This document shows positions 3,201-60,203 of a stretch of 64,000 bases of DNA, piece by piece. The position numbers and the translations under genes are program-made. The stretch comes from Candidatus Babeliales bacterium (GTDB taxonomy: Bacteria; Babelota; Babeliae; Babelales; Chromulinivoraceae). Position 1 is the stretch's first letter. Each line of letters opens with the position of its first letter. The stretch covers positions 1-64,000 of the forward strand of contig JAGOSF010000007.1 in the NCBI GenBank assembly GCA_018062405.1, in the 5' to 3' direction. Below the pieces are notes generated by a model. The model had not been told where the DNA came from. It saw only the letters and a program-made list of their open reading frames with translations, and made no database searches.

Positions 3201-6200
3201 CCCAGCAGAAGTATAACGAGCAATATCGATTCCAGTACCATTTTTATATGCAATAATTAAACGATCAAACTGATCTGCAAGCAGCGCATAAATTGGTGAT
3301 GCAACACCTGTATCATAATAACCTGGGGTCAGCGTCGAATTAAAGGTTGTATCAATTTCGCCAGTATTTGTGAACGCAAACAATGCTCCATTTCCAGGAC
3401 CAGTCAACTGCCCAGCAACAACATATCGGCCGAGAGTTTGTTCTACAGCAACGGTTGCGATCAATGAATTCAAGCTACTTAACGCTGTTGCTACATTGGT
3501 ATTAAACGTTGTATCTAAAGAACTTAGACCTGCATTATAACGTTTTACCCAACCAGCTCCGCCAGTTGTTCCAGCTGCAATTAATCGACTTGAACCATCA
3601 ATAAACAATGAATAAACACCTGCTGGAGTTGATGACGCAAAACCGGTTCCTGCTGGTGCAAAATTTGTATCTAAAACAGCACCATTGGTTAAACGAACCA
3701 ACGTTCCATCGGTAAATGCAGTATAATAGTATCCGTTGCTTAAAATTGGCAACACAACTTGGGCAGTCAAACCTGCAAGACCTGCATCTAAACTTCCAAG
3801 TTGCACAACACCAGAAGTTCCAAAATTTGCATCAATAGTCCCTGGAGTTCCAGCAGAAACTGTCAGCGAATATTGCCCAACAAATTCATTACCATACACC
3901 TGCATTAAATATGGAGTGACTGTTGCTGCAATTGTTCCAGAACCACCAACTAATATTTTACCTTCTTGATTAATTTTTGCATCGTACCATTTTGTTACGG
4001 TTGCTGTTGGCACTGCAAGGGTTTGAATTCCTGTCGTATTAAATGAAGTATCAAGGCCACTTAAATCTGCAAGCACACGCATGATAAATGGCAAATTCGT
4101 TGTTGAATCATAACCAGTTAGAATTACATTACCATTCGAACCTCCAGTTGTCGCATCAATTGATATCGATGTCACAATTGGAGTTGTAAATCCAGTAATT
4201 CCTGTAGTTAAGGTCAAAGTAGCAAGCGTCGCAAGATTTGTTCGAGCATAATTTTCTACAATAATACTGTTGGAACTATTGACAGTTACGGCAACAATAT
4301 TATTTTGTTGATCAAATGCAATATAACTTGATCCAGCTATCGTATTCGTTATTGCAGTAGAAGAAGCTGAAATAGCTAGGCCATTCGCACCTACTTTTTG
4401 AACGACGACACTTGGAGCTACGGAAGATCTATACATCAGATAGATATCATTTGTAGAATTGACAAGAATCGAACTTAAAATTCCTTGCCCTACGACAATA
4501 TTACCGGCACCATTTACTCCAAATGTTCCATCAAGCGCTCCTGTTACAGAATTATATGCATTGACGATAGCATTTGTTGTACCTTTTTGCCCTACAACTA
4601 AAATTCTGCCATTTGATTGTTGAGCAACTGCATTACAAATATCCATCGTATCAGTTACACTAAAGCCTGATGTCGCAACACCAGTTGTTGCATTAAATGA
4701 TTTCACCCATCCATCATTTGAACCAGATGCGCCAGAACCACCAACCACAATTAAATTACCATTTTGAGCAATCATCATATCACTAACATTTGCTTTGCTC
4801 AAAATCGTTAAAACGCCAGTTGTTCCAAAGCCTGTTTGTTGTACATCATCAGCTGCAAAATAGGTAATGTAGCTATTTGTTCCGTTATCAGCAGCAACAT
4901 AATAAAAATTATTGCTCAATTGTAAAATCGATTTTACTTGATTTGTTGTCGATAAGTCTGTGGTCAATTCTGAACTCATATCCAAATAACCAGAGTTTGC
5001 GCCTGTTGGATTATACGTTGTATCAAGCTCACCTGCAAGACCTGTAGTCGACTGATTTTGATCAACTTTCGTTACAACAGAGCTATTAAACACCTGATTA
5101 AAAGCTCCGCCCAAAGCACCTGCTTTACCAATAACTAAAATTCCTTGATCAGAAGTTACATCAATTCCTAAAAAATTAGACATGCTATCAGAACCACCGC
5201 TTGCACTATTCGTAACCCCAGTTTCTAAAAAGCCTGTTGCATAACTAAAATTTGTATCAAGTGCAAATCCAGAAGTTAATTTAAACATTTCTAAAGTATT
5301 ACCTGTATCGTCAATACCAAGCACCAAGGTTGAACCATCACTTAACGCAAGTAAATCTTGAATATACGGCGTGCCAATTGTTCCTAAACTAACAGTTACA
5401 GGACCAGCATCATCATTTCCTGAAGTTGTATATCTGCGGGCTACATAATGTTCTGAGCTATCTTGTGCAACAACAACAATTTTACCATCAAACGCAAGTT
5501 GTAAGCGAATTTGATAGGTTTGAGAAACTGATGGAATTAATGTTTGTGTTCCACTTCCAAAACTTGCATCAAGACCAGAACCATTTGAATATAATTGTTT
5601 AATTGCAGCAGCGTTCGAAGCATCACGATAGGTGTACACAATTTTATCGGTCGTTGTCACTGCAGCACCAATAATTTCTGCGTTCACACCAGTTGTAAAA
5701 TAACCAGATGTACTAAAATCAAGATCTATCGCACCTGTTGTTGGGCTATATCCTGCAATAATTCCACTTGTACCATTATAGCCAGCAACGGTAATTCGAC
5801 CAGACGCTTGCTCAAGCACAACATTACCCAAAGTTAAATTTGCATCTGATTTTATCCCAGCAGTTCCAAAATTTGTATCAAGTACCCCAGCAGATGAAAC
5901 TTTTGCTAGCGTCATAATTGAACTTGTATCACCTACAACATAAATGTTCCCGTCGGATGCAACCATAATTTGTCGTGGATATTCAAGCCCAGTTATCGTA
6001 ACATACCCAGGAGTTACTCCAGCATTAAATGCTCCTGTATCAAGCGCATAGCTCGAAGTTAATTGTTCTAAAATCGTATTGCCAGTTACAGAATAGACAA
6101 CTAAAATTTTTCCACTTGGTAATACATACTCTGCCATCGAAGTATCAGATGTTGCACCTGAAGGAATCGCCAAAATACCACCATCACCAAAACTATAATT

Positions 6201-8741: not shown

Positions 8742-9041
8742 TACAATTCCCTTTTTTGTCAAATTTATAAGTTAAAACAAATGTCAAACATTAATTGAAC
8801 TGGAGTTTATATTTTTTTTATGAAAAATAAAGTGAATCTTTATTCTCAAAAGAAATATATTGAAGTTTTTTAAAAATAAAAGGAAATAATTAATTAGGAT
8901 TTTAAAAAAGATAATTTTGCAGCAGCTGCTGCAAAATTAAAAACAGAAGATCTCAGAGCCTAAAATGTCGTAAAAAAAATAGGCGGCCGTTTGTAAACGA
9001 CCGCCTATTGTACAATTCAGAGAACCTGAAGTCTAGAAACC
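8742..9041. other. Gene-free spacer between the two giant repeat genes
   Basis: This 300-base stretch has no credible ORF. It holds the terminator of the upstream minus-strand gene (8972-9010) and, closer to 8742, a very AT-rich segment that should contain the promoter of the 2.8k-aa gene. Two TTGACA boxes are visible on the minus strand near the start codon, but neither has a well-spaced -10 box, so I do not call a promoter. A small palindrome (GCAGCAGCTGCTGC) lies near 8920. Confidence 0.6.
8972..9010 (-). terminator. Strong Rho-independent terminator
   Basis: The arms AATAGGCGGCCGTTT and AAACGACCGCCTATT form a long GC-rich stem. In minus-strand RNA the only non-Watson-Crick pair is a G-U wobble, and the stem is followed directly by eight T residues. 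It lies about 30 bases past the stop codon at 9042. Confidence 0.9.
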
Positions 9042-12000
9042 TCAGAGAGCTTGTGGCGATGAAAACTTCATGCTTTCAGCTCGAGTTTCTAACAATGTAA
9101 AGAACTCATCTATTTGCTCTGTCGATCCAGAATATAACTCATCAAGTAAAAGTCGCTCTACTTCAAATGCCGCTATATTTGTAGAAAAATTCCAAATAAG
9201 ATTTGTCCCTGGCTGCAACTCATAGTTTTGTTCATAGTTAAGAATAACAGATCTGACTGCCGCAAGAACTGCTACTTTTACGACTCTATTCGTAATGCCT
9301 CGAGCCAAGAATTTTAGAGCTATAACTTGCTCTAAATAATCTCGACTATTTCCATAATAATAGATTCGAACATCTTCTGGGTTTAACAATGACGGGTTGA
9401 CCACAAATATTTCGTCACCAGAATACATTTCTGCAACAACAAAGGCTGGACCATCAGTTAAACCTGCAATAATAATTTGATTCAAGACATTGGTTACCAC
9501 GGTACCACCAGTCAACAGACCAGTAATCGGACCAGTTGTCGCCATTCCAACTGAGGTAAAGCCTGTATCTAAAACACCCGTGTCAGTAAATCGAGCAACG
9601 ATCATGCTTCGCGGTTGTTGATACCCAGTCGCAACACCACCGACAACAGTTCTATGTTGGTTATCGACGGTAATACCACCAAACTGATTTAAGACGTTAA
9701 CAGGATCACTGTACGCGATTCCACTCACTCCAAAATCTGGGTCAAGATCACCATTAAAGACAAAGCGAGCGAGAACGAATGAATGATTTGCAGTTAAACC
9801 ACCAAGAACAATTTGATTATGATCATTTGATGCAAGAGCACCACCTTGAACAAGACCTAAAATGTCACCTGATGTTGCAATACCAGCTGTACCAAAACCA
9901 GAAATTAAAATTCCATCATTATCAAGTTTTGCAAGAACCATTGCTGTTCCAGCTTTACCACTGACAAAAATGTTATTAATTGTATCGGCCACAACACCAG
10001 CATTAGATTCTAATGATGGAACTGGAACGTACGCAACATAATCATTGATAGATAAACCAAATGATGTATCAACAGATCCATCTAATAAAAATCGCGTTAC
10101 GACAAAATTTCCGTCAGTTGTGTAACCGCTGGCAAGCGCTTTACCAAGAGAATTGATTGTAACATATCCACCAGTTGATAAATTCGAAATAAGGTACGAT
10201 GAAGCGATGCCACCAACACCATAGTCGGTATCAAGGTCGCCATCAACGGTAAATCGAGCAACAATTAATTTGTCAGTCGTTTTTACACCTCCAACATAAA
10301 CTCGATTAACACTATCAACTGCAACATAACCACCAAGAACTCCATTGATAGCAACAGTTGTCGATGTAACACCATCGATTCCAAAATCTGGATCAAGCAA
10401 ACCACTTGCTAAATAACGAGCTACAATAAATAAACCATCAGACGTGATGCCAGAAACCAATGTACGACCAAGACTGTCAATTGCAGAACTACCATACATA
10501 TCCATGTCTGTAATTGTCGGCGATATCGAAATACCGTTGCCATTAAATAATGGATTCAACACAATTGGTAAGCTGTTGCTTGGTTGGTATCCTGTAAATT
10601 GTGGCACTGGTTGGACATTTAAATATCCATACATTCTCATGGTCAAAGGAGTTTCTTGATTAAGTGCTGGAATTTCACCACCGCACAATAAAATATCCCC
10701 ATTCGTTTGAACGTTCATGTTACAAAGTCTACGCTCTAACTGCATAGGCGATGGAATGGCTTGGAAGGTTACGACACCAACTCCGCCAACACCAAAAGAA
10801 TGATCTCTTTCCCCAGCTTGATTAACACAGGCAACAAATTCATAATTATTTGCTGGAGTTGAACTTGTTTGGTAACCTGCTACCAAAATTTTATTATCTT
10901 CTAAAGTAACTAAAGAAGTTACGATAACATTGGTCGGCGTTACTTCGAATTCAATATTTAATTGCGACCCACTGTTAAAAGTAGGATCAATTTGGCCTAC
11001 TGCAGTTATACGATTTACCGCTAACTGACCATCAGCACCACCAAAAGATCCTGCAACGCAGATTCTTCCTGAATCATCAAACCCAGAACGAAGACTGCTT
11101 GCATTATCAATTTCGGCAAGAACTGAACTTGCAAAACCGCTCACTCCAAAACTGTTCACACGTTGGCCAGTTGCATTTAATTTTAAGATACCAGCTTGTA
11201 AAACAGAATTAGTATAAGCAATCGCAACATAAATATTATTCGATGAATCAACTGATACTGATGTTGCATTGACACCAAGATAGACTTGGCCGCCAATACC
11301 AAAATTAGTAACAATTTGCCCTGCTGAATTCAACATTCGAACAACACCAATGCCATTTAATGATCCAACAATAACAATGTTACCATTCGTTAATTGCTGA
11401 CAGGCATTAATCGAATCCATAATTCCATAGACTGTCCCTAAAGGATAAGTTAAAGAACCTCCAAAAGATTGGTCTAAAGTACCAGTTGGTAAAATTCGTT
11501 TAATAAATCCACCAAATGTTGCATTACTACCTGTTACTAAAAAGTTGCCTGAACCATCAAAAACCATGGTCTCAACACGTTCTACCCCAGCTAATTTAGG
11601 AATCGCAATCCCAAGGCCAGAACCGTAGGTTGTATCTGCTGTCGAATTTTGCAACAATCTTTTTGTATACGATATTGATGAGTTGTTATCGGTCACAACC
11701 GTCATAATATTTGTACCAGTTAATTGACGAATTGCTCGAACTTCTTGATTTGCTGTAGGTGTAGTTGCACCAAGAACATAATCTTCTGCAATACCAGCAT
11801 TACCATAGGTCGGATCAAACTCACCTGGAATTCTGACATGAACTGGAGAGTTTTTAACTTGCGTTGTTCCAGGAGTTCCAAAAATACGTAAAATAATTGG
11901 TGTTACATCATTTGAAAACATCTGTTCATAAGCACTGGCAACTAAATTTCCTTGGTTAATACCAACACGAGATTGTACCATAATACCAGTACCAACACGT

Positions 12001-14477
12001 GCATAATAATTAGGAACTTGATCGCCAATCTGAATTGATAAAATACCAGGAATTGGACCTTGTGAATTAAATGTTTGATCCAAAGTAGCATTTGCAGCAA
12101 CTCGAGCTACCAACATTGCATCATCAGTCGTATCATCATACCCAATAATCATTAACGTATTATCACTCACCCCAATCAACTGTCGAAGTTGAACAGAAGT
12201 TCCACAGGTGATAACTAATGGCATAAGATACCCTGCTACAGGGTTACCTGTTGCAACGTTTAACACCTTAACTAAGAAATTAGTTCCAAGCGCTGCCGCA
12301 ACAGCAACGTTGCCATCAGCATTAAATGAGACCCGAACATTATCTGCAGTAATTGATGGATAACCAGCAAAAACATTGGCCGCAGTCCAGAAAACTTCTG
12401 ACCCTGGATTATAAATAGCGGTAACATCAATCTCACTGGTCACACTATTTTTATACCCAACAAAAATATTTCCATCATCGCCAACAATACCATTGTACAA
12501 AGGCCCCATATTTAAGCCAAAGTCATTTGATACAATATAGCCAGGTGTATTATTTTCATTAAATCTAAGATCTATCGCACCATCAATTTCATAATACGCA
12601 TTAATTTGACCAGTTGATGAAGGACCTGCTAAAAATAATAAAACTCTTGTTGGACCTTCAAACCCAACACCAAGACCTTGGAATCCTGAAACTTGATAAT
12701 CAGCATTCCATAGCAAAGTTCCATCTGCACTATATTTACGGAAAAGAGCTCCTGTACTTGAATAACCAGTTACATAAATATTTTGATCGCCATCTTCTAA
12801 GATGCTCGTGATATATTCACTAACAACAGAAGGAGTTTCTGAATTTTCTAAAACTAATTTTCCACCAGAACCAAATGTGTTATCATACAAACCAGCATTA
12901 GTTAAGCGAACAAGAATCATGCTCGTGTAACTATTTGTACCAGTGTAACCACTTGAACCGATTAACATATTACCAGAAATCAAATCGATCACTGTTTCTG
13001 CACCTTGTTGCATGCTTGATCGATATAACCCAACAAAAGGACACACAACCCCTGGATTTGTTTCGGTAAAACCATTTCCAAATAAAGAATCGGTCGTACC
13101 CTGTTCATGAGATTGAGGATATTGTGTCAACTGATAGATATATTGATTGCTATACAAACAAGAAAGATACGGAGTTGAAGTTCCTAAGTTTAATTCAGCT
13201 CCAACCGTAAATATTTGTCCATCTGGAGCAAGCGACATACTATAACTATTTGCAAATGTAGAAGGTGTAGCTCCCGATGCATTAAAAAAGTTAATGCCTG
13301 GAGTTGCTGCACTATTAAACGTATCATCTAAAACACCAGCATCAGTTGCTCTGATAATTGCCATCTGATTTGTTGTTGTATTAGAACCTACAAAATAAAC
13401 GTGGCTATCGGAGCTTGTTACCATACTCAATAGTCGATAACTATCTGTACCAAAATTTCCACCAGTTGTTACAAAGTTTGCAAAACTACCTGCAGCAGCA
13501 GTTGATGCTACAATACTTGCAGCCTTAATAACAGTTGGACTGCCAGATGGAACAGCGACCACAAGGTCACCTGTTGCATCAATCACCATGCATAATTGTG
13601 ACGTCACCATTGAAGAACCATCAAGATAACTCATCACAACTGGAGCTCCTGAATTCCAACTAATATCCACAAATCCTGTTACGGTTAATCGAGTAACATA
13701 AACTGATAAATTGGTAGCAACGTACGCAACATATAATTCGTCGTATTCATTAATATAAAGATTTGTTAAAGCAACTGTCGAAGTTGGGAAATCTTGCGAT
13801 CCATCAAATAAAATATATCCACCTAATCCAAATTCTGTATCGATTGCACCGGTCAATGTATATCGAGCAAGCATCGCATTGGTTCCATTAAAACCTACAG
13901 CAATAACTTCGCCTGATGTTTGAATTGCTAACTGATTAATTTGGCCAGTTGCTCCCCAGCTTGCACCATCAGTAAAATCAAACATTGTATCAACTGTACC
14001 ATTTGTATTGATTCTACGAATCCATGGAAGTGAGCTTCCATCATTTTGCCCAGCAACCAAGAATCGCTGTTGTTCATCAACAATGATCGATGATATTGGA
14101 TTTTGTAAACCAGTCAGTGTTAGTTTATTGCTCGTCCCTGCTGCAAAACTTGTATTGACTGCACCTTCTGCTGTATATTGAACAAGGTAACTATTACTTG
14201 AATCACCAAAAACAGCAACAATAATACCATTTGGTAACACAAGCGTTGCTACTGCTTGAGAATTTATGACCTGAGCAGCTAAGCTCACACTCCCATTCGT
14301 CCCAAAAATCCCGGTTGGAACTAACTGCCCGATCCTACCTGCGGCTTGGGTATCAACAACTCCTTGCGTATATTGATTTCCATAAATCCGCGACATCATT
14401 GGCTTAGAATTTACTGCTTCGAGCAAATTCGTCAGATTCATCACAAAAAAAATTGTGATGCCAAAATAGTTCTTCAT
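9042..14477 (-). CDS. Giant exported delta-60 repeat protein (1,811 aa)
   Basis: A short hydrophobic N-terminus (YFGITIFFVMNLTNLL) resembles a signal sequence. The protein then carries many delta-60-like units with GxLDxxFxxxG and strands such as DNKILVAGY or SGxIxVAG. The units are more diverged from one another than those of the neighbouring giant protein. The last 100 or so residues are not repeats: a charged, helical tail rich in Glu, Leu and Tyr, which might be a capping or anchoring segment. The ATG at 14477 has an AGGGGGG site a few bases upstream. The strand shared with the 2,839-aa paralogue and the spacer terminator suggest two separately terminated transcripts. Function is unknown; extracellular binding is inferred. 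Confidence 0.83.
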   Translation of the reverse strand: MKNYFGITIFFVMNLTNLLEAVNSKPMMSRIYGNQYTQGVVDTQAAGRIGQLVPTGIFGTNGSVSLAAQVINSQAVATLVLPNGIIVAVFGDSSNSYLVQYTAEGAVNTSFAAGTSNKLTLTGLQNPISSIIVDEQQRFLVAGQNDGSSLPWIRRINTNGTVDTMFDFTDGASWGATGQINQLAIQTSGEVIAVGFNGTNAMLARYTLTGAIDTEFGLGGYILFDGSQDFPTSTVALTNLYINEYDELYVAYVATNLSVYVTRLTVTGFVDISWNSGAPVVMSYLDGSSMVTSQLCMVIDATGDLVVAVPSGSPTVIKAASIVASTAAAGSFANFVTTGGNFGTDSYRLLSMVTSSDSHVYFVGSNTTTNQMAIIRATDAGVLDDTFNSAATPGINFFNASGATPSTFANSYSMSLAPDGQIFTVGAELNLGTSTPYLSCLYSNQYIYQLTQYPQSHEQGTTDSLFGNGFTETNPGVVCPFVGLYRSSMQQGAETVIDLISGNMLIGSSGYTGTNSYTSMILVRLTNAGLYDNTFGSGGKLVLENSETPSVVSEYITSILEDGDQNIYVTGYSSTGALFRKYSADGTLLWNADYQVSGFQGLGVGFEGPTRVLLFLAGPSSTGQINAYYEIDGAIDLRFNENNTPGYIVSNDFGLNMGPLYNGIVGDDGNIFVGYKNSVTSEIDVTAIYNPGSEVFWTAANVFAGYPSITADNVRVSFNADGNVAVAAALGTNFLVKVLNVATGNPVAGYLMPLVITCGTSVQLRQLIGVSDNTLMIIGYDDTTDDAMLVARVAANATLDQTFNSQGPIPGILSIQIGDQVPNYYARVGTGIMVQSRVGINQGNLVASAYEQMFSNDVTPIILRIFGTPGTTQVKNSPVHVRIPGEFDPTYGNAGIAEDYVLGATTPTANQEVRAIRQLTGTNIMTVVTDNNSSISYTKRLLQNSTADTTYGSGLGIAIPKLAGVERVETMVFDGSGNFLVTGSNATFGGFIKRILPTGTLDQSFGGSLTYPLGTVYGIMDSINACQQLTNGNIVIVGSLNGIGVVRMLNSAGQIVTNFGIGGQVYLGVNATSVSVDSSNNIYVAIAYTNSVLQAGILKLNATGQRVNSFGVSGFASSVLAEIDNASSLRSGFDDSGRICVAGSFGGADGQLAVNRITAVGQIDPTFNSGSQLNIEFEVTPTNVIVTSLVTLEDNKILVAGYQTSSTPANNYEFVACVNQAGERDHSFGVGGVGVVTFQAIPSPMQLERRLCNMNVQTNGDILLCGGEIPALNQETPLTMRMYGYLNVQPVPQFTGYQPSNSLPIVLNPLFNGNGISISPTITDMDMYGSSAIDSLGRTLVSGITSDGLFIVARYLASGLLDPDFGIDGVTSTTVAINGVLGGYVAVDSVNRVYVGGVKTTDKLIVARFTVDGDLDTDYGVGGIASSYLISNLSTGGYVTINSLGKALASGYTTDGNFVVTRFLLDGSVDTSFGLSINDYVAYVPVPSLESNAGVVADTINNIFVSGKAGTAMVLAKLDNDGILISGFGTAGIATSGDILGLVQGGALASNDHNQIVLGGLTANHSFVLARFVFNGDLDPDFGVSGIAYSDPVNVLNQFGGITVDNQHRTVVGGVATGYQQPRSMIVARFTDTGVLDTGFTSVGMATTGPITGLLTGGTVVTNVLNQIIIAGLTDGPAFVVAEMYSGDEIFVVNPSLLNPEDVRIYYYGNSRDYLEQVIALKFLARGITNRVVKVAVLAAVRSVILNYEQNYELQPGTNLIWNFSTNIAAFEVERLLLDELYSGSTEQIDEFFTLLETRAESMKFSSPQAL

Positions 14478-30406: not shown

Positions 30407-30488
30407 TTTTTAGATCTGAAAAAGTTGTATACAAAGTTAAAATAGTTTCATTTTTTAATGACATGTTTTGTTCCAAATGGAGAAGCAA

Positions 30489-31895
30489 ATGGTTCAAATT
30501 GATACAAAAGTACAAAATAAAAAAAACTCTCTCCTTCAATCCCCACGGACGTATAATGAAATTGTTCATTATTTAGATACGCACTGGAGCACAACAACAA
30601 ATCTTGTTGCTATAAGCCAACTTGATGAATGTTTTGATTTTGCATCTAAAAAATTAGATATAGCAATGGTATCAGGAACAAGCGGAAAAAGTACAACTAT
30701 TCACTATACTTGTAAACTTTTTCAAGAAGAAGGTTTAAAAATTGGTGCGTTTTATAGCCCTCATATATTTTTATACAATGAGCGCCTGACCATCAACAAT
30801 GAACAGATTTCAAATAATGCTTTTACAGACCTTGCAAACAAAGTCATTCAAACCGCAGAAGATAAAAAAATAGCCGCATCAACAAAAGATATTTTAACGA
30901 TGATGGCTTTTTTATTTTTTAAAGAAAATAATGTTAACTTAGCTATTTTCGAAAATTCAGGAACATTTTCTATCGATCCTGTTCTATATTCAAATGTTAA
31001 AATAGCAGCAGTTACACGATTAATGCCCAACACAAGTCATGACGATATCCTAGCAGCCTTTCATAACATTATGTCACCAATGACATCAACCAGTTATTTT
31101 GTAGCCGCTGACCAAAACAAACAAAACTTACAAATCATGCATCAACTTGTCGAAGCTCAAGGTAGCAACTGGTCAATGCCAATTCGTAAATTAGCACCAC
31201 TTGCTTACCCTTTTGAACAACTTCATGGTCGATGTGCAGCGCTTGCAGAAAGAATCGCTCATATTTATAGTGATAATTTTTTAAATAAAAATAAAGAAGG
31301 CATTATCAGCGCAAGTCTTTTAAATAAACCAAAAGGATTACGCGGACGTCCAACTTTAGAAGCAAAAAAAGCTTTGGAAAATTATCCTAGTAAATCACTT
31401 GAACAATTTTGGAGTACGACGACAACAACATTGCAATCTCGATTTCAGTTATTAACGGACAAGAAACCTCTTGTTTTGCTTGATAATGCGGATAATCTTG
31501 ATGCATTAAATAATGTTTTTCTTGGTTTTAGATTACTTGCTTACAAGCAACAATTTAAAGGTGTTTCTCTCATTCTTGGATGTTACGAAGGTCAATTTGA
31601 AGATGATGAATTTATTAAACAAATTCGTTATTTTATAAAAAAGACATCTGCTTCGATCTCTTTTTGCCCAATAAAAATTACTCCTAGTGAAAACACTCAC
31701 CAAAGTTGGGATGCACAAAAAATAGCAATTCTTGCAAAAGCTGTAAAAATTAAAGCAAAAGCTTTTAAAGATTTCGAAGAAGCTTTTCTTGCTGCAAAAA
31801 CCGCAAATGATGATCGTAGTAATCTGATTATTATTACGGGCAGCCAAGCAATCGTTTCAGAATATTTACACTACAAAGAAGAAACAGCTGCATAA
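30489..31895 (+). CDS. folC: Folylpolyglutamate synthase-like Mur ligase
   Basis: FolC adds glutamate to folates (and dihydrofolate synthase activity is common in bacteria). The 468-aa protein has the Mur-ligase P-loop VSGTSGKSTTIHYTCKLF, the FolC-type YSPHIFLYNERLTIN and a C-terminal ligase domain with LILGCYEGQFEDDEF and IITGSQAIVSEYL. Usual residues such as the folate-loop pattern are diverged, so substrate is uncertain. I chose the ATG at 30489 after GGAGAAG; two other in-frame starts lie within 21 bases upstream. Its stop overlaps the start of the AtpR-like gene (TAATG), tying it to the ATP synthase genes. Confidence 0.8.
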   Translation: MVQIDTKVQNKKNSLLQSPRTYNEIVHYLDTHWSTTTNLVAISQLDECFDFASKKLDIAMVSGTSGKSTTIHYTCKLFQEEGLKIGAFYSPHIFLYNERLTINNEQISNNAFTDLANKVIQTAEDKKIAASTKDILTMMAFLFFKENNVNLAIFENSGTFSIDPVLYSNVKIAAVTRLMPNTSHDDILAAFHNIMSPMTSTSYFVAADQNKQNLQIMHQLVEAQGSNWSMPIRKLAPLAYPFEQLHGRCAALAERIAHIYSDNFLNKNKEGIISASLLNKPKGLRGRPTLEAKKALENYPSKSLEQFWSTTTTTLQSRFQLLTDKKPLVLLDNADNLDALNNVFLGFRLLAYKQQFKGVSLILGCYEGQFEDDEFIKQIRYFIKKTSASISFCPIKITPSENTHQSWDAQKIAILAKAVKIKAKAFKDFEEAFLAAKTANDDRSNLIIITGSQAIVSEYLHYKEETAA

Positions 31896-32158
31896 TGTTG
31901 CAAGCAATTTGCATCACACTTTTTTCTGGCATACTATTTGGACTTTCTCTGTTTTTAACACAGAAAGTCCTTTTTATATCCAAAAAACCTCAGCTTATCG
32001 GAGTTTTTTCTGCTCTGAGACTTATAGTTCTTGCGAGATTTTTTTACATTATGTTGAAATCAACTCAGATACATCCTATAATTTTAATAGTTTCATTTTT
32101 AGTCGCTTATTGGCTAACTATTTTAAAATTCAAAGAGTTTATCAATGCAAGACCATAA
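31895..32158 (+). CDS. AtpR/AtpI-like small membrane protein of the ATP synthase
   Basis: The 87-aa protein has three hydrophobic segments. The middle one carries two arginines (SALRLIVLARFFYIML, R42 and R48), as in the AtpR proteins of N-type ATPases. Those are thought to assist the c ring; AtpI of ordinary F-ATPases is a ring-assembly factor of similar size. It lies directly before atpB, overlapping it by 14 bases, and N-ATPase operons have the same R-B-E order. An AtpQ-like partner is not seen. Identification rests on context plus a weak motif. Confidence 0.6.
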   Translation: MLQAICITLFSGILFGLSLFLTQKVLFISKKPQLIGVFSALRLIVLARFFYIMLKSTQIHPIILIVSFLVAYWLTILKFKEFINARP

Positions 32159-32885
32159 TTTACTCACAGGCCATCAATGGCAACCTTTGACCCATTATGG
32201 ATTTACTCACAAATTTTGGACATTAAACACCGATACTTTGATGAGTACCATTGTCGTCACTATTGTTATTATGATCTTTTCTTTGTACGCACACTATGCG
32301 ATGCAAAAAAAACAGTCAGTTGCTCAATTCGTTATTTTAAAATATGTCGAAGGCTTTAAAGATCTTTTACATCAAACATTGCAAAGCGCACCTTTAAACC
32401 ATCTTGCGTTTATTGGATCACTTTTCACCTTCATTTTTTGTTGCAACACCATCTCGTTTGTACCTTTTTTAGAAGAACCAACCAAAGATTTAAATACAAC
32501 ACTTGCGTTTGGACTTATTTCATTTTTTTATGTGCAAGGCTATGCGATTCAATACAAAGGAATTAAAACTTATCTTTTAGGCTTTATTGATCCATTCTTC
32601 CTGATGCTTCCACTCAACGTAATTGGAACCGTAACTTCAATTATCTCACTTTCATTTCGACTTTTTGGTAACATTTTTGGTGGTTACGTTATATCAAGCC
32701 TTTATTTTCATAAAATAGTTGCAAGTTCAGTTCTGATGCAAATTTTAGGACTTATCACAGCAAGTAATCTTTGTATATTTTTATTATTTGGTTTTTTTGA
32801 AGGCATGATTCAGGCATTTGTTTTTGCGATGCTCACCTTAACTTATTTATCTATGGAAATTGCACCTGAAGAGGAGTCTGAATAA
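32145..32885 (+). CDS. atpB: F-type ATP synthase subunit a
   Basis: Subunit a forms the two ion half-channels beside the c ring in the inner membrane. The 246-aa protein has about six hydrophobic segments and the stator arginine at R172 in SIISLSFRLFGNIFGG, the family signature. An acidic stretch (EEPTKDLN) precedes the middle helices, as in typical AtpB proteins. It overlaps the AtpR-like gene and is followed two bases later by atpE. Ion specificity cannot be read from this subunit. It is the partner of an unusual four-hairpin c subunit. Confidence 0.92.
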   Translation: MQDHNLLTGHQWQPLTHYGFTHKFWTLNTDTLMSTIVVTIVIMIFSLYAHYAMQKKQSVAQFVILKYVEGFKDLLHQTLQSAPLNHLAFIGSLFTFIFCCNTISFVPFLEEPTKDLNTTLAFGLISFFYVQGYAIQYKGIKTYLLGFIDPFFLMLPLNVIGTVTSIISLSFRLFGNIFGGYVISSLYFHKIVASSVLMQILGLITASNLCIFLLFGFFEGMIQAFVFAMLTLTYLSMEIAPEEESE

Positions 32886-32887
32886 TC

Positions 32888-33841
32888 ATGGTCGAAATGT
32901 TGTATCTTATTTCTATAGCAATTCCTGTAACTCTTTCTGCTTTAGGCGCTGGTATCGGTCAAGGTATGATCGGAGTAAAATCACTCAAAGCAATTGATAT
33001 TCAACCTTTTTCAGCTCCAGAAATTAATAAAATATCTTTAATCGGCATGACACTTACCGAAACTTCAGCAATTTTAGGACTTGTTGTTTCAATCATGATG
33101 CTTTTAGACAGTTCAATTCCTGCAGATTATTATTATGCTTCTTTTGGAAAATTAGGCATGGGCCTTGCAATTGGTCTGACCGGCTTTATTGCAGGAGTTG
33201 CTTCAAGCTTTCCAGCCCAAGCAGCTTGTCTATCAGTTGCTCGCCAACCCTTTTTCAGTAATAAGATTTTACAACTTATGCTGGTAACTCAAACTTTGAT
33301 CATGACTCCCAATGTCTTTGGGTTTATTATTGCATTATTAATCAATATGAAAACTCCATGTATTACCGATCTTAATGGAGCTCTACAGCTTTTAGCTGCG
33401 GGACTTGTTATTGGCGTTGGAAGTATTGGACCATGTATTGGATTAAGTCAATTTGCAGCTGCTGCGTGCACTGCAATTGGAATCAACAGAAAAGCTTATG
33501 CTAAAATTTTACCTTTTACTTTTGTGTGCGAAGCAATTATCGAAACTCCTGTTATCTTTTCGCTCCTCATAGCCTTACTGATTTGGAATGTAGAAATATT
33601 ACCTTCGACGCCAGAAATAAAAGGGTTAACCTTAATCGCTGCTGCAATTTGTATGAGTTTAAGTACCATTGGTACTGGATTTAGTGCTGGTAAAACTGGC
33701 GCTGCTGCATGTGAGCAAATAGGTCAAACTCCAGAAGCTATTTCTATTATCTCAAAAGTTGGATTTTTAGCTCTCGCTATGATCGACACTTTTGCAATTT
33801 ATGGTTTTATAGTTTCAATAATTTTAATATACGCAATCTAA
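32888..33841 (+). CDS. atpE: Quadruple fused ATP synthase c subunit (four hairpins)
   Basis: Ordinary F-type c subunits are single hairpins of 75-90 aa; this one is 317 aa with eight membrane helices. Four c-like hairpins follow one another, with loops resembling RQP or GQTPEA (IDIQP, ARQP, GINRK, GQTPE). The ion-binding carboxylate position repeats at 80-81-residue spacing: E58, M139, E219, D300, each followed by Thr. So the second hairpin has lost it. Only the first hairpin has GAGIGQG with Gln25 besides E58 and T59, the Na+ ligand set of Ilyobacter/Propionigenium c rings. A ring of such units would have one silent hairpin in four, changing the ion-to-ATP ratio. Fused c subunits are known in V/A-type enzymes (two to thirteen hairpins), not, to my knowledge, as four hairpins beside an F-type a subunit. 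Confidence 0.9.
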   Translation: MVEMLYLISIAIPVTLSALGAGIGQGMIGVKSLKAIDIQPFSAPEINKISLIGMTLTETSAILGLVVSIMMLLDSSIPADYYYASFGKLGMGLAIGLTGFIAGVASSFPAQAACLSVARQPFFSNKILQLMLVTQTLIMTPNVFGFIIALLINMKTPCITDLNGALQLLAAGLVIGVGSIGPCIGLSQFAAAACTAIGINRKAYAKILPFTFVCEAIIETPVIFSLLIALLIWNVEILPSTPEIKGLTLIAAAICMSLSTIGTGFSAGKTGAAACEQIGQTPEAISIISKVGFLALAMIDTFAIYGFIVSIILIYAI

Positions 33842-33857
33842 CAAACACGGATCAATC

Positions 33858-34769
33858 ATGATGTACGAATCTTTACTGGATGCAATCGGTCATACACCTT
33901 TAGTCAAAATTGACTTTAAAACACCCTGCCCTATTTACGCAAAGCTTGAATACCTCAACCCAGGTGGCAGCGTTAAAGACAGATCATCGTTATACATGAT
34001 CGAAGAAGCTGAACAATTAGGCCTTTTAAAACCTGGTGGAACGTTAATCGATGCATCATCTGGCAACCAAGGAATTGCAACAGCAATGATCGGCGCTATA
34101 AAAGGCTATAAAGTTATCATCACATTTCCAGAAAAAAACAGTAAAGAAAAACTCGAAACATTAAAAGCTTACGGAGCAGAAGTTATTATTTGCCCTCCAA
34201 CAAGTTTTTTAGAAGATCCAAATAGTTATCATTCACGCGCTTTACAGCTGCATAAAGAAACTCCAAACTCTTTTATGCCAAATCAATATTTCAATCTATC
34301 AAATGCTCGCGCACATTACCGTTCACTCGGGCCTGAAATTTGGAAACAAACCGAAGGCAAAATCACTCATTTTATTGCTGCAGCAGGAACAGGCGGAACC
34401 ATTAGTGGAGCTGGAAAATATTTAAAAGAACAAAATCCAAACATTAAAGTTATTGCCGTCGATTCGAACAACTCCTATCGATCAACCCAGGGCAACCCAA
34501 AGCCATATAAACTCGAAGGTATTGGTGTTGACTTTGATTCTCCGGTGTTAAATTATGATGTTATTGATGATTTCTTTTTAGCTCCCGATGATGAATCTTT
34601 GGGCATGCTTAAAACTCTTGCAAGAAATCATGGAATTTTAACTGGTCCAAGCAGCGGTGCCGTTGCCTACGCAGCACAGCAATATTGCAAACAATTGCAA
34701 CCAGATGACCTTGCTGTCATTATTTTTGGCGACTCTGGACGAGCATACTTGACCAAAAACTTTTATTAA
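33858..34769 (+). CDS. cysK: Cysteine synthase-type PLP enzyme
   Basis: The 303-aa protein belongs to fold-type II PLP enzymes of the cysteine synthase/cystathionine beta-synthase group. PLP lysine is in NPGGSVKDRSSLYM, the substrate loop in DASSGNQGIATAMIG, the phosphate-binding glycine loop in AAGTGGTISGAGKYL, and the pyridine-N contact in TGPSSGAVAYAA. The usual reaction makes cysteine from O-acetylserine and sulfide, or cystathionine from serine and homocysteine; no cysE or transsulfuration partner is nearby. It follows atpE by 16 bases and ends the operon before a terminator. Confidence 0.85.
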   Translation: MMYESLLDAIGHTPLVKIDFKTPCPIYAKLEYLNPGGSVKDRSSLYMIEEAEQLGLLKPGGTLIDASSGNQGIATAMIGAIKGYKVIITFPEKNSKEKLETLKAYGAEVIICPPTSFLEDPNSYHSRALQLHKETPNSFMPNQYFNLSNARAHYRSLGPEIWKQTEGKITHFIAAAGTGGTISGAGKYLKEQNPNIKVIAVDSNNSYRSTQGNPKPYKLEGIGVDFDSPVLNYDVIDDFFLAPDDESLGMLKTLARNHGILTGPSSGAVAYAAQQYCKQLQPDDLAVIIFGDSGRAYLTKNFY

Positions 34770-37335: not shown

Positions 37336-39063
37336 TTAATTAACAGCGCAAGGAGCTGGCATATCAAGATTTAATAATTCATAAATATCAGAACCAAGCA
37401 CCGTCCCTTTTTCTATTAAAAGTTTTGCTATACTTTCAATATCATGCTTATGTTCATTCATTAATTGTTTGCCACGCTCAGCACACTCATTAATAATAGC
37501 TTGAACTTCTCGTTCAATTTGAGTTGCAATATCATTAGGCATTTGATGAGATCGATTAAAACCAATATTTCGTAATGTATCTGACATTCCATAGACCGCG
37601 ACCATATCATAGGCTAAAGCATGCGCTTTTTCTAAATCATTTGAAGCACCAGTACTTAATCCCATTCCAAAAGCTTCTTCTGCTAATCTTCCGCATAGAA
37701 CTATAACAATCTGATTTTTCATATCATCTTGTGTATATTCATAAGATTCATACAATGGCAACATACGCATGACACCCAAAGTATTTGATCGTGGAGTAAT
37801 TGAAACTTTATGAACAATATGCGCTTTATCACAAAGAATCTCTGCCATAGTATGACCAGCTTCATGAATAGCTGTTTTCCATTTTTTATCATGGGATTGT
37901 TGCATACCAGTAATTTCACGACCAAGCGTAATATGATCAAATGCTAATTCAACGTCCTGCATAACAACTACCTGCCGCCCTGCATTAACAGCTAAAATTG
38001 CAGCTTCATTAACAAGATTTGCTAACTCTGCACCAGAAAAATTTATCGTCATTTGAGCAATTCTATTAACATCAAATTCTACAGCCGTTTTCACAGATTT
38101 TACAGCAATCTGCAATAATTCAATTCTATCTTTAATAGCAAGTTTAGAAACTTCTACTGTACGATCAAATCGACCAGGTCGAACAATTGCAGCATCAAGT
38201 AAATGAGCTCGGTTTGTAGCTCCAAGTACAATAACTGGATATTCAGATTTATCAAGGCCATCCATTTCTGCAAGCAAAGCATTAATTGTCTGATCATGCT
38301 CTCCATTACCACCAGAAGAAGAACGCTGTAAAGCTACTGCATCAATTTCATCAATAAATATAATACAAGCGCCATATTTCGAAGCTAAATTTCGAGCTTT
38401 TGCAAATAGACTTCGTACTCGCATTGCTCCAACACCAACATACATCTGAATAAAAGATGAACCATTAATACTAATAAAGGGACAACTAACCTCTCCCGCA
38501 ACTGCTTTTGCCAATAAAGTTTTACCATTACCTGGAGATCCATTCAGCAAAATTCCTTTTGGAACGTGAGCGCCAATATTTTTATACATTTTTGGATTTT
38601 TAATATAGGAAATAATATCTTGCATATCAGCTTTAGGACCAGACATACCAGCAACACCAGACAAATTAAAATCGATTTGACCTGGATAATAAATCTGTAA
38701 ACCTTCTTGCTCCATATTTGCATCTATCGCTTTCATTTGCACATAAATTAAAAAATACATATATGCTGCAAACGCTGCAATAGTACCAATCGTTGCAGTT
38801 GATCTATCTATAAAAGAATGAATCCCTTCTTTTGATTGAAAAAATTTAAAATCATTTTCTATTTTATCTGCCTTTTCAAACAGAACTGCTTTTAAATTAC
38901 TGAAAAAAGATGGGTCTTCTTGATGAACTGTTTTTTTAATCGCATCAATAGCCTTGCAAGCTTCATATAATTCAATATCAATATCAATAGACTTAAGATT
39001 GAAGACAGCCATTGTTAGTAAGCTCAACAATACAAAATTTTTTCGTGGTTTAAAAAAAACCAT
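37336..39063 (-). CDS. FtsH-like membrane AAA+ metalloprotease
   Basis: FtsH proteases pull membrane or soluble proteins through an ATPase ring into a zinc protease chamber. The 575-aa protein has an N-terminal membrane segment, a second one at about residues 91-110, Walker A GSPGNGKT (175-182), Walker B IFIDE (235-239), the second-region motif RPGRFDR, and zinc site HEAGH (400-404). The third-ligand motif appears as TGASNDLEKA. The N-terminal part between the two membrane segments is charged and longer than usual. Residue details fit FtsH but it is divergent, perhaps a second, specialised copy. It follows the membrane MutS-like gene by 12 bases and precedes the exported gene at 36591. Confidence 0.88.
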   Translation of the reverse strand: MVFFKPRKNFVLLSLLTMAVFNLKSIDIDIELYEACKAIDAIKKTVHQEDPSFFSNLKAVLFEKADKIENDFKFFQSKEGIHSFIDRSTATIGTIAAFAAYMYFLIYVQMKAIDANMEQEGLQIYYPGQIDFNLSGVAGMSGPKADMQDIISYIKNPKMYKNIGAHVPKGILLNGSPGNGKTLLAKAVAGEVSCPFISINGSSFIQMYVGVGAMRVRSLFAKARNLASKYGACIIFIDEIDAVALQRSSSGGNGEHDQTINALLAEMDGLDKSEYPVIVLGATNRAHLLDAAIVRPGRFDRTVEVSKLAIKDRIELLQIAVKSVKTAVEFDVNRIAQMTINFSGAELANLVNEAAILAVNAGRQVVVMQDVELAFDHITLGREITGMQQSHDKKWKTAIHEAGHTMAEILCDKAHIVHKVSITPRSNTLGVMRMLPLYESYEYTQDDMKNQIVIVLCGRLAEEAFGMGLSTGASNDLEKAHALAYDMVAVYGMSDTLRNIGFNRSHQMPNDIATQIEREVQAIINECAERGKQLMNEHKHDIESIAKLLIEKGTVLGSDIYELLNLDMPAPCAVN

Positions 39064-39074
39064 AAGCAGATTCC

Positions 39075-39103
39075 TTTAATTAAACAAATTCGCTTCTTTT
39101 GCC
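39075..39103. repeat. 29-bp direct repeat, copy 2 (3' end of mutS-like gene)
   Basis: Perfect match to 36562-36590. This copy covers the last eight codons and stop of the mutS-like gene and the start of the leader of the FtsH-like gene, including its AAAGG ribosome site. Confidence 0.9.
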
Positions 39104-40812
39104 ATATCCATAGCAACGTTCACCGTGCTTGCACCAGGACTCAACGTAAATGGATAGACCAATTTGCCTTCGGCATTTTTTATTGGAGCATCAGCTTTAT
39201 AGTTCATTAAACCAATATTTTGCTTACCAAGCTCTTTCAATGCATCAAAGTGTGTTGCATAAATAAACAGCGTTTGATGGTAGCTTGCTATCTTTTTAAT
39301 AAAATCATACGCAATCTTTTCACCAGCTTCTGCTGCTGTTCCGGTAAATAATTCATCAAGCGCAAAAAACAACTTTTGATTTGTTGGCAAGTTTTTAATA
39401 ATTTCAAGCAACTCTTGAGCACGTTTTACTTCTGAAGCAAATAGCGATAAGCCATTAATCAAATCATCTGAAATATTTAAATACGATAAAACAACATCAA
39501 ATTGCGTATATTCAAAATGAGATGCAGCTGCAACACCATACGTTTGACTCAGTACAATATTTTGTAAAATCGCACGAATCGAAGTTGTTTTGCCACCAGC
39601 ATTTGGACCAGTTAAAATCACGTGCTGATCTTGGATCAAGCTATTTGTCACTGCATGTGGCACTAACACGTTCCAGAAATCTTTTGAAATAACTTTTGGT
39701 TGAGCAGATCTAAGTACCTGAGAAAAGCAGAACTGTCGTTGACTATTTTGAGCCTCTATCATTTTTGTCGCAATCGCATTACATGCATCCATTTCTGCAA
39801 TTGATGCAAAAATTTGCGCTAACTGATTTTCATTTTCATACAAATAATATAAATATGTATGAACTGCTGATGGATCAAAACAATAATCAGTTTCATTTTG
39901 ATAACGACTTACCTTTAAACCATCTACCAAAGCAACACCTGCATTATCAGTGATTAAGCTCATTTTAAATTGCGTTTGAATATTCTCTTCAATTGACAAA
40001 AGTTCAAGATCTTCTGCAATATAAATTAATTGATTAAGAGCATGCATTTTTGATCGTTTTTCACCAGCTTTAACAAGGCCATCAGCATAGACGAAGGTAA
40101 TAAAAGCTGTGATTAAACCAAAATATAGTCCAGAAGCTATCGCATCGTAATTTCCTTTATAAACCACACCACCACAGTAACCTGTCGCACCCCACAGTAC
40201 TGGAAGCGCCAAAGACAACTCAAGAAATTCAACAGTCTTTGGAATTCGACTGGTATTCATAAATTTAACAAAACCATACAAAGGATGATTCGCATCTTTA
40301 AGCTGCTGTAATTGCGCAAGCTCTGGACATGTTTTATTTTTAAAACTAGTTGACATCAAAGTAATGATATCTTTTTCATATGGTACAACTGATTGCAATA
40401 TTGCTTCAACTTCTGATTTCAGATTAGGATTTTCTACTAACTGCCGAATAATATTTGATCGTAATGCAACAATGCCAGATTTATCAGTTGGGCTCACTGG
40501 TCGTGATAAAGTTTCACGTAAATAGGCTTTACCCATAACTGTTTTTGCCTGAAAAAAATCAGCTATTTCTGAAACATTTAAATCTTTATCGAGATTCGTA
40601 GCTTGTGTATAGACAATCGGTGCAACCTTACCCGGAACAACACTATGGTTAATTTGCGCCATAATGTTGATAATTTTATCATGGCCAGAATTATCGTCTA
40701 AAACTGGTGCCACAAAGCTTTTTTCATCAACTTCAGCAACTTTTGAAATTAGTTCAGGACTGGTAAAAAATAGAGATACCAGTAAAAAATACTTTAAATT
40801 TTCTTGATTCAT
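39076..40812 (-). CDS. Membrane-associated MutS-family ATPase
   Basis: The 578-aa protein has the MutS core but not the N-terminal mismatch-binding domain. A hydrophobic N-terminus (KYFLLVSLFFTSPE) looks like a signal or anchor. Lever/core helices follow, then two membrane segments at about 197-217 and 226-245. The ATPase part has Walker A TGPNAGGKTT (401-410), a LSLFASEVKRA signature and Walker B LFFALDELF (481-489). Similar MutS-like proteins with membrane helices are known from Bacteroidetes, with unknown role. It leads an operon with the FtsH-like protease. A DNA-repair role is doubtful; a membrane-linked ATPase is inferred. Confidence 0.8.
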   Translation of the reverse strand: MNQENLKYFLLVSLFFTSPELISKVAEVDEKSFVAPVLDDNSGHDKIINIMAQINHSVVPGKVAPIVYTQATNLDKDLNVSEIADFFQAKTVMGKAYLRETLSRPVSPTDKSGIVALRSNIIRQLVENPNLKSEVEAILQSVVPYEKDIITLMSTSFKNKTCPELAQLQQLKDANHPLYGFVKFMNTSRIPKTVEFLELSLALPVLWGATGYCGGVVYKGNYDAIASGLYFGLITAFITFVYADGLVKAGEKRSKMHALNQLIYIAEDLELLSIEENIQTQFKMSLITDNAGVALVDGLKVSRYQNETDYCFDPSAVHTYLYYLYENENQLAQIFASIAEMDACNAIATKMIEAQNSQRQFCFSQVLRSAQPKVISKDFWNVLVPHAVTNSLIQDQHVILTGPNAGGKTTSIRAILQNIVLSQTYGVAAASHFEYTQFDVVLSYLNISDDLINGLSLFASEVKRAQELLEIIKNLPTNQKLFFALDELFTGTAAEAGEKIAYDFIKKIASYHQTLFIYATHFDALKELGKQNIGLMNYKADAPIKNAEGKLVYPFTLSPGASTVNVAMDMAKEANLFN

Positions 40813-57968: not shown

Positions 57969-58643
57969 ATGATGAACTATAAAGCAATTATCTTCGACAT
58001 GGATGGAACAATTGTTTCAACAGAAGCAATGTGGCAACAAGCAACTCAAGATATTTTAAATAAATATACAAATCATTTAACCCAAACAGAAAAAGATGAA
58101 ATCAAAATTTATCTTAAGGGTCTTGCCCTCTACGAGAGCTGCAAACATATTGCAAAATTTGCTATAGATGAAGTTCATCCTCATATAATATTGCAAGAAA
58201 AAATGGATCTAGCTCATAAATATTACGAAACTAACAAGGTTAGTTTTATTCCTTTTTTTGCTGAATTTCATGAAAAAGCAACGAATCATAATTTAAAAAC
58301 TGCCATAGCAACTAATGCAATTACAGAAACAGTCGCCCGAACATTAACGCAATTGCCTTTACGTGATTTTTTTAATGAACATATTTACAACATAGATATG
58401 GTTAATAAAGTTTGCAAACCAAATCCGGCAATATTTTTACACGCTGCTAAAAACATTGATACACTTCCAGAGCATTGCATTGTTATCGAAGATTCTGTGC
58501 ATGGGATTAAAGCTGCAAAAGCTGCCGGCATGTATTGCATTGCTATCAATACAGGCAATGATCGCCACCTTTTACACGAGGCTGATGAAATTGTGGAATG
58601 CTACAGAGAAATTAATTTAGACAAACTTTTATATAAAAAATAA
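57969..58643 (+). CDS. HAD-family hydrolase 1, cytoplasmic
   Basis: The 224-aa protein is a HAD phosphatase of the beta-phosphoglucomutase/gph type. Motif I is FDMDGTIVSTE (nucleophile Asp), motif II is AIATNAI, the lysine is in VCKPNPAIFL, and motif IV is CIVIEDSVHGIKAAKAAGM. A helical cap lies between motif I and II. Substrate is open (sugar phosphates, phosphoglycolate, nucleotides). It is the first of three tandem paralogues; this one has no export signal. AAGGGA precedes the ATG. Confidence 0.88.
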   Translation: MMNYKAIIFDMDGTIVSTEAMWQQATQDILNKYTNHLTQTEKDEIKIYLKGLALYESCKHIAKFAIDEVHPHIILQEKMDLAHKYYETNKVSFIPFFAEFHEKATNHNLKTAIATNAITETVARTLTQLPLRDFFNEHIYNIDMVNKVCKPNPAIFLHAAKNIDTLPEHCIVIEDSVHGIKAAKAAGMYCIAINTGNDRHLLHEADEIVECYREINLDKLLYKK

Positions 58644-58663
58644 TTATTATTCAGGACATCTCG

Positions 58664-59434
58664 ATGAAAACAACACGTAATATACTCCTTCTATCCATAA
58701 CAACTATTGCTATTCTTTCTATCGGTTACTACTTTACTGCAACTCACAATAATAAAAAAATAGTTCATGCTATTATTTTTGATATGGATGGAACGATTAT
58801 CAACACTGATCCTTTATGGAAAGCTGCAAATCGTTACATTTTAGATGAGCATGCACCACATTTAAGCTCTACAGAAAAAGATGAAATCATTGCCAGCTTT
58901 CAACACCTTACTTTTTATGAAATATGGACAACACTTCAAAAAAATTACTCAATCCCTATGACCTTAGAAGAAATTGCTGAAGACAACACGCGTCACGTCC
59001 ATACCATGTACGAAATTCATGGAATTTCTTTTATTCCAAAATTTGATGAATTTCATACTGTAATTTCTCAACTTGGTATAAAAACAGCAATTGCCACAAG
59101 CTCTCAAGAAAAAACGGTCAATATAATTTTAAATACTGTGCCGCTTCGTGACTATTTTGGTGAAAATATTTATCATGTTGATCATGTCAATAAAGCTTTT
59201 AAACCAAAACCTGATGTATATTTACATGCTGCAAAAATGCTTGAAGTACAACCATGTAACTGCATTGCAATCGAAGATAGCTCAAGCGGAATCAAAGCTG
59301 CAAAAGCTGCTGGCATGTATTGCATCGGTATCAACACTGGCAAAAATAGAAAGCTTCTTGAACAAGCTGATGAAATTGTTGAATGCTTTTCAGAAATCGA
59401 TTTACAAAAATTCAATTTTATTTCCGTAAATTAA
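58664..59434 (+). CDS. HAD-family hydrolase 2, membrane-anchored or exported
   Basis: A HAD protein of the same subgroup (FDMDGTIINTD; AIATSSQ; AFKPKPDVYL; CIAIEDSSSGIKAAKAAGM), but with a hydrophobic N-terminus (ILLLSITTIAILSIGYYFTA) not present in the first copy. The segment has no obvious cleavage site, so it may be anchored with the enzyme in the periplasm. The active-site residues seem intact. It is 20 bases after copy 1 and clearly a tandem duplicate. Confidence 0.85.
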   Translation: MKTTRNILLLSITTIAILSIGYYFTATHNNKKIVHAIIFDMDGTIINTDPLWKAANRYILDEHAPHLSSTEKDEIIASFQHLTFYEIWTTLQKNYSIPMTLEEIAEDNTRHVHTMYEIHGISFIPKFDEFHTVISQLGIKTAIATSSQEKTVNIILNTVPLRDYFGENIYHVDHVNKAFKPKPDVYLHAAKMLEVQPCNCIAIEDSSSGIKAAKAAGMYCIGINTGKNRKLLEQADEIVECFSEIDLQKFNFISVN

Positions 59435-59444
59435 AGGCTTGATC

Positions 59445-60203
59445 ATGAAAAAATTCTTATTTCTCCTCATAGCACCAATTCTAATTTTAAATGTAAACCT
59501 TCGTGCAAGCCAGTCTAAAAACTATCAATTTAAAGCAATCATATTTGATATGGATGGCACAATTTTAAATACAGAAGTTGTCTGGGATGAAGCAAATCAT
59601 CATATTCTAACAACCTACGCACCTCATCTTGATGAAAAAGAAACACAAGAACTTTTGCATACACTCAAAAATCTACCACTGCAAGACGGCCGAAAACTGA
59701 TGCAAGCAACTTGTTCGGTTGCTATTTCAATCGATCAAATCATAGAAGAAAAAACAAACTACGTTCTTGATGTCTATGCAAACAAAGGAATTTCGTTTAT
59801 CCCCTTTTTCATAGAATTTCATGCAGCGATTTCTGAACTTGGGATAAAAACAGCGGTTGCAACAAATGCTACACAACATTCAGTCAATTGCATTGTACAA
59901 CAAGTTCCACTCAAAAATTATTTTGCAACCCACATTTATACGATTGATCACGTCAATCAAATCTATAAGCCTCAACCAGATGTTTATCTTCACGCAGCTG
60001 CTATGATTGGAATCGATCCTCAAGATTGTATTGCAATCGAAGATACCTTAAATGGAATTAAAGCTGCAAAAGCTGCTGGCATGTATTGCATTGGGATCAA
60101 TACTGGTAAAAATCGCAAGAACCTTGAACTAGCTGATGAAATTGTGGAATGCTTTTCAGAAATCGACATAAAAAAACTATTCAATATAGAAAATCGCCCA
60201 TAA
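59445..60203 (+). CDS. HAD-family hydrolase 3, exported
   Basis: The third tandem HAD has a classical signal peptide (KKFLFLLIAPILILNVNLRAS) then FDMDGTILNTE, VATNATQ, YKPQPDVYL and CIAIEDTLNGIKAAKAAGM. I chose the ATG at 59445 after AAAGG rather than a TTG two codons earlier. Copies 2 and 3 share the C-terminal CFSEID stretch. It is 10 bases downstream of copy 2, followed 17 bases later by the symporter gene, suggesting that the hydrolase and transporter work together. Confidence 0.87.
   Translation: MKKFLFLLIAPILILNVNLRASQSKNYQFKAIIFDMDGTILNTEVVWDEANHHILTTYAPHLDEKETQELLHTLKNLPLQDGRKLMQATCSVAISIDQIIEEKTNYVLDVYANKGISFIPFFIEFHAAISELGIKTAVATNATQHSVNCIVQQVPLKNYFATHIYTIDHVNQIYKPQPDVYLHAAAMIGIDPQDCIAIEDTLNGIKAAKAAGMYCIGINTGKNRKNLELADEIVECFSEIDIKKLFNIENRP

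Follow-up and report, generated by a model that had tools for sequence, protein, structure and literature searches.

A four-hairpin c subunit beside subunit a of the F-type ATP synthase of Dependentiae, and its possible place in a hybrid rotor ring

The window analysed here is a stretch of 64,000 nucleotides from a Candidatus Babeliales bacterium (assembly GCA_018062405.1, contig JAGOSF010000007.1, forward strand), whose genome (G000 in our survey) amounts to 1.23 Mb and is 94.6% complete. Within it, a gene for a small AtpI-like membrane protein, the gene of F-type subunit a (atpB) and a gene for a c subunit made of four hairpins follow one another on the plus strand, preceded by a Mur-ligase-like gene and followed by a cysteine-synthase-like gene. 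The features are:

30468..31895, plus strand: Mur-ligase/FolC-like gene, upstream (weak PF08245 match, E 0.011, under the cut-off)
31895..32158, plus strand: small membrane protein of 87 amino acids, probable AtpI, a c-ring assembly factor (weak PF03899 match, E 0.044, under the cut-off)
32145..32885, plus strand: subunit a, atpB (PF00119, E 6.9e-37; conserved Arg172 and Gln223)
32888..33841, plus strand: four-hairpin F-type c subunit, 317 amino acids (four PF00137 stretches, AlphaFold model, orthologs across the phylum)
32888..33109, plus strand: hairpin 1, residues 1-74 (Q25, E58 at 33059-33061, T59; no Tyr at the Y70 place)
33131..33361, plus strand: hairpin 2, residues 82-158 (M139 at 33302-33304, carboxylate lost; RQP loop retained)
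33371..33589, plus strand: hairpin 3, residues 162-234 (E219 at 33542-33544, T220)
33617..33835, plus strand: hairpin 4, residues 244-316 (D300 at 33785-33787, T301, Y305)
33858..34769, plus strand: cysteine-synthase-like PLP enzyme, downstream (PF00291, E 3.4e-72)

The frame of the four-hairpin protein is open and begins 3 bases past the stop of the subunit a gene. Upstream, the Mur-ligase/FolC-like gene shares one base with the AtpI-like gene and is probably in an operon with it, though its function is probably unrelated. A contig scan with one protein, which detects close relatives only, yielded two further loci, L006 and L007, where the order of small frame, atpB, four-hairpin c gene and cysteine-synthase-like gene is identical, the small frames at the place of the AtpI-like gene encoding 82 and 110 amino acids, respectively. 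Elsewhere, the window carries two very large adjacent genes for secreted-looking repeat proteins of 2846 and 1811 amino acids (222-14477, minus strand), an FtsH-like AAA protease with an HEAGH motif beside a MutS-like ATPase, each beginning with a hydrophobic segment that resembles a signal (37336-40812, minus strand), and three tandem HAD-type phosphatase paralogues, of which two are hydrophobic near the N-terminus (57969-60203, plus strand).

Four stretches of the 317-residue protein match the c-subunit profile PF00137 (ATP-synt_C; E 6.9e-36, 122.7 bits, with a Pfam cut-off of 24 bits), whereas an F-type c subunit usually consists of one hairpin and fewer than 100 amino acids. The ion-site residues are E58, M139, E219 and D300, the carboxylate being absent in hairpin 2 only. 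The AlphaFold model, computed from an alignment of 93 orthologs, places eight membrane helices, some of them kinked, in four hairpins (mean pLDDT 97.4, pTM 0.93). The original prediction of four c hairpins in a single chain, lying next to an F-type subunit a and lacking one site, is thus confirmed by the frame, the Pfam matches and the model. By sequence as well as by fold, the nearest solved relative is c1 of Acetobacterium woodii (4bem_J), itself a component of a mixed ring, followed among the fold matches by V-ATPase K/c chains. No solved c-type chain spanning all four hairpins is among the matches listed, a viral fold library gave no match at E <= 0.001, and a plasmid search returned a match to normal c only.

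A normal c is also present in the genome. Of the combination named as refuting the original prediction, an ordinary atpE elsewhere and a silent four-hairpin gene, the first half is thereby borne out: a second c gene, for a normal single-hairpin c of 87 amino acids, lies on another contig (C14), where it is followed by two b-like genes, delta and alpha. The b-like genes, which are assigned by position and size and give no match to Pfam subunit b, stand in tandem and encode 124 and 161 amino acids (L008:6276-7129, minus strand). Beta and a short epsilon are found on contig C5 and the one gamma of the genome on contig C10; epsilon (L011:2501-2746) comprises 81 amino acids and the N-terminal domain alone. 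The ATP synthase genes of this genome are split over C8 (a and four-hairpin c), C14, C5 and C10, as opposed to the usual single operon.

The enzyme to which this Fo belongs is of the F type. Profile matches identify a (PF00119, a single match in the genome), delta (PF00213), epsilon (PF02823) and gamma (PF00231), while PF00006 matches alpha, beta and a third, Rho-like protein. A V/A-type K subunit was rejected on the grounds that a, alpha, beta, delta, epsilon and gamma, its partners here, are all of the F type. Likewise rejected was a second complete F1Fo or an N-type ATPase owning this Fo, since a, alpha, beta and gamma are each encoded by a single gene and the third PF00006 match is Rho-like. 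Among NCBIfam models, those of F-type c are favoured for the four-hairpin protein, and the N-type models for c or a, TIGR03322 and TIGR03306, give only partial scores: 87.7 bits where the curated cut-off is 130.85, and 100.6 bits where it is 302.1.

We surveyed 101 genomes of the Dependentiae, a phylum of intracellular bacteria, 68 of which reach 90% completeness or more with no more than 5% contamination and are referred to here as good. Orthologs of the four-hairpin protein, 313-352 amino acids long, occur in 96 of the 101 genomes and in all 68 good ones, and exactly five PF00137 hairpins, four plus one, are counted in 86/101. Read from the two phylum counts combined, both c genes are present in 92 genomes and in 67 of the 68 good ones. 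The sole good genome without both, G053, also lacks the linked delta gene. More generally, the genomes missing a c gene lack either delta (G051, G053, G058 and G060) or subunit a (G021, G039, G045 and G061) as well, and because linked genes are absent in these same eight genomes, the c-gene absences are likely due to incomplete assembly. Of 95 genomes with full-length subunit a, nearly all have a single copy; an extra fragment is seen in two genomes and only a partial copy in two; its essential Arg is kept in 96 of 98 aligned rows and its Gln in all 98. At each of the 96 loci a same-strand subunit a frame lies near the four-hairpin gene. One a, one four-hairpin c and one normal c are thus the set found throughout the phylum.

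These observations dispose of an assembly error joining separate atpE genes, which would have refuted the original prediction: the fused gene recurs in 96 genomes, including that of a relative from the same genus, G024, where both c genes lie on a single contig of 1.17 Mb. Six pairs give dN/dS ratios of 0.03-0.15 for the four-hairpin gene, dS being not computable in one further pair, and codon comparison thus indicates strong purifying selection, which makes a silent gene unlikely. A pseudogene, silent copy or artefact might have been suspected from the normal atpE elsewhere in the genome; with 96 genomes, one of them in one contig, no stops, the low dN/dS and a fold predicted at high confidence, we regard it as practically dismissed.

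The residues at the four ion sites were counted over 96 four-hairpin proteins and 35 single c proteins. The commonest patterns for hairpins 1 to 4 are EQED (44 proteins), EEEE (21), EQEE (13), EMED (7) and DQED (3), with rare others. Hairpin 1 has E or D in 96/96, hairpin 3 has E in 91/96 and hairpin 4 has D or E in 95/96, whereas hairpin 2 has Q in 62, E in 24, M in 7, V in 2 and G in 1. The loop of hairpin 2 is nonetheless retained (R in 92, Q in 88 and P in 95 of the 96). Loss of the hairpin 3 carboxylate is seen in L070, L078, L080, L083 and L097, the last of which has also lost that of hairpin 4 (D, E, S, G). In the single c, E is invariant (35/35), Q32 and Y70 are each found in 32/35, and S or T follows the carboxylate in 33/35.

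The state of hairpin 2 follows the tree of the 96 proteins, rooted at the midpoint. A clade of 24 members (families f4, f5, f12, f14, f15, f16 and f18) has E in 23, and the remaining clade of 72 has Q in 62, M in 7, V in 2 and E in 1. M and V belong to the family of the window and to L006, a near relative, V also occurring in one f19 member. L037 (G076), which is EEEE within the larger clade, either seems to have regained the carboxylate or sits on a misplaced branch. The same hairpin compared between genomes is 0.35-0.50 identical, against 0.22-0.28 in comparison with other hairpins, and hairpins 1, 3 and 4 are closer to single c than to one another. The likeness of corresponding hairpins across genomes indicates that the four had already diverged when the phylum radiated. 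The simplest history places fusion ahead of site loss in one clade, the opposite polarity being formally possible under a midpoint root. Since E is kept at hairpin 2 in 23 of the 24 members of the smaller clade, and 21 proteins are EEEE, fusion need not have arisen for site loss.

The residues around the sites also differ from hairpin to hairpin, in line with the specialised hairpins that the original prediction had suggested. In the Enterococcus hirae K subunit, the carboxylate and Gln of a site come from hairpin 2, and Thr, a carbonyl and Tyr from hairpin 1 (PMC2359735). If the handedness is the same here, a full site would combine Q/E of hairpin i with S/T/Y of hairpin i-1. At the Y70 place, Tyr is found in hairpin 4 (91/96), and mostly Leu/Ile/Met, Phe and Phe in hairpins 1, 2 and 3, respectively. 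At the Q32 place, hairpin 1 has Gln in 55 and Glu in 17, hairpin 2 has Ser, hairpin 3 has Leu or Gln, and hairpin 4 never has Gln. The Q...E-S/T (Na+) motif is accordingly whole in single c and mostly so in hairpin 1, its Q missing in hairpins 2 and 4 and most of hairpin 3. With the Tyr half kept in hairpin 4 and the Q/E half best preserved in hairpin 1, the canonical half-sites are retained where the four-hairpin arc faces outward at either end, as would be expected from the E. hirae geometry if the arc adjoins normal c or another arc. Position 66, the residue that follows the carboxylate, differs between the clades in hairpins 1 and 4 as well as in single c, Ser prevailing among the 24 members and Thr among the 72; in hairpin 3 it is Thr in both clades. 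This pattern is suggestive, although it amounts essentially to one phylogenetic contrast.

What kind of ring would such a set of genes build? We think it rather probable that the four-hairpin protein is the fused c of the sole F1Fo, in a hybrid ring with several copies of normal c, with a longer arc than in A. woodii, and that the enzyme serves mainly as an ATP-driven pump on host ATP. The rotor would then be composed of one or more four-hairpin arcs and several single-hairpin copies. In the window's arc, hairpins 1, 3 and 4 would carry working carboxylates and hairpin 2 would be dead, so that n single c together with one arc would make a ring of n+4 hairpins, n+3 of them with a site. That both c proteins share one ring we infer from gene content; the number of arcs, the direction of operation and the purpose of the asymmetry are likewise inferred, the last perhaps being a fixed asymmetric ring that passes one ion less at each turn wherever hairpin 2 is dead. 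For the fuller reading, an obligately asymmetric, phylum-wide hybrid F-type rotor with a fixed arc, non-canonical inner sites of which one is usually dead, and canonical ends meeting normal c, where fusion preceded the radiation and one large clade afterwards lost a site, belief and doubt are about evenly balanced. Against a hybrid it can be said that separate operons hold the two c genes, which is not the case in A. woodii, and that a ring of four-hairpin chains alone would show canonical end faces too.

Such a ring, in which three or four four-hairpin chains form the whole rotor, so that 9 of 12 or 12 of 16 hairpins carry a site, was the one originally predicted; the single c would act elsewhere or as a minor component. 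The neighbour of the only subunit a is indeed the four-hairpin gene and not single c in 96/96 loci, and the faces of hairpins 4 and 1 are compatible. However, genomes across the phylum retain a normal c whose site is intact, and in the window's genome it shares a gene run with delta and alpha. Because normal c is encoded phylum-wide and there is only one subunit a, the mixed ring is preferred, and a rotor of four-hairpin chains alone appears unlikely. Two conserved c genes in separate operons with a single a could also mean that two pure rings are made in alternation, according to conditions, to give two gear ratios with a common subunit a. We know of no prokaryotic precedent for this, and the matching end faces make mixing likely; this reading seems to us, if anything, a little less credible still. 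More improbable again is a role outside the rotor, as an assembly scaffold, plug or chaperone for a ring of single c: the diverged hairpins, the lost site and the adjoining AtpI-like gene would suit it, but a scaffold has no need of the carboxylates that hairpins 1, 3 and 4 keep in 96, 91 and 95 of 96 proteins.

The hybrid ring that we favour would most likely work as an ATP-driven ion pump using ATP imported from the host. ATP/ADP translocases are present in 98 of the 101 genomes, and the window's genome, the one searched for respiratory markers, matched neither COX1 nor the complex I-type antiporter domain. The C-terminal domain of epsilon is a usual brake on ATP hydrolysis; in the 81-residue epsilon, which lacks it, this brake is missing. 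For a relative, Chromulinavorax, an ATP synthase running in reverse on imported ATP has been proposed (PMC6561590). Together, translocases, the lack of respiratory markers in the search, truncated epsilon and the reverse operation proposed for a relative fit pumping and support it indirectly.

As for gearing, c-rings are usually treated as symmetric, and the ion-to-ATP ratio is the ring size over three. Ion pumping by ATP, which the original prediction had proposed, gains indirect support from the translocases and the short epsilon, whereas the large shift in ion-to-ATP ratio that went with it would not follow: with one arc, the dead hairpin would mean one ion less per turn, a small gear change.

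Fused c subunits with lost sites were named in the original prediction as a feature of V-type and some archaeal ATPases, but F-type examples are already known too. A. woodii and Clostridium aceticum encode a c1 of two hairpins, with E replaced by Q in hairpin 2, alongside normal c (PMC7911925), and for A. woodii 10 Na+ sites are described (PMC7793690). The present system resembles their F/V-hybrid rotor of c1 and c2/c3 in being F-type and in combining, with one subunit a, a normal c and a fused c without the hairpin 2 carboxylate, which is missing from the window's protein and from 72 of 96 overall, 24 having E. It differs in having four hairpins and not exactly two, in an arc that keeps three sites, in separate operons and in its phylum-wide occurrence; in addition, the window has M where A. 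woodii and C. aceticum have Q, and one clade here keeps E. Chains of more than two hairpins are known from the K subunits of Methanocaldococcus (three) and Methanopyrus (13 hairpins) (PMC2359735), but these are A-type, whereas here a, delta and epsilon are F-type and an additional normal c is present; Methanopyrus, moreover, keeps all sites. Fused hairpins and lost sites are shared with K, c and c'' of Enterococcus and eukaryotic V-ATPases, and the fold agrees locally with that of 2bl2 (TM-score 0.83 on the target), but those chains have two hairpins each and V-type partners.

Hybrid F-type rotors are thus already known, and a four-hairpin F-type c fixed across a phylum appears new within the literature searched. 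As the original prediction had supposed, we found no description there of a four-hairpin c in an F-type enzyme, though hybrid-rotor reviews may describe other multi-hairpin F-type c, and a term search of the two genome papers on cultured phylum members returned no discussion of c subunits. If the hybrid reading is true, these bacteria would provide a natural experiment in asymmetric rotors, bearing on the need for like sites and on the docking of gamma and epsilon onto a non-uniform ring, with the clades with and without E in hairpin 2 as a built-in comparison. It would also inform how an ATP-importing parasite gears its enzyme for pumping.
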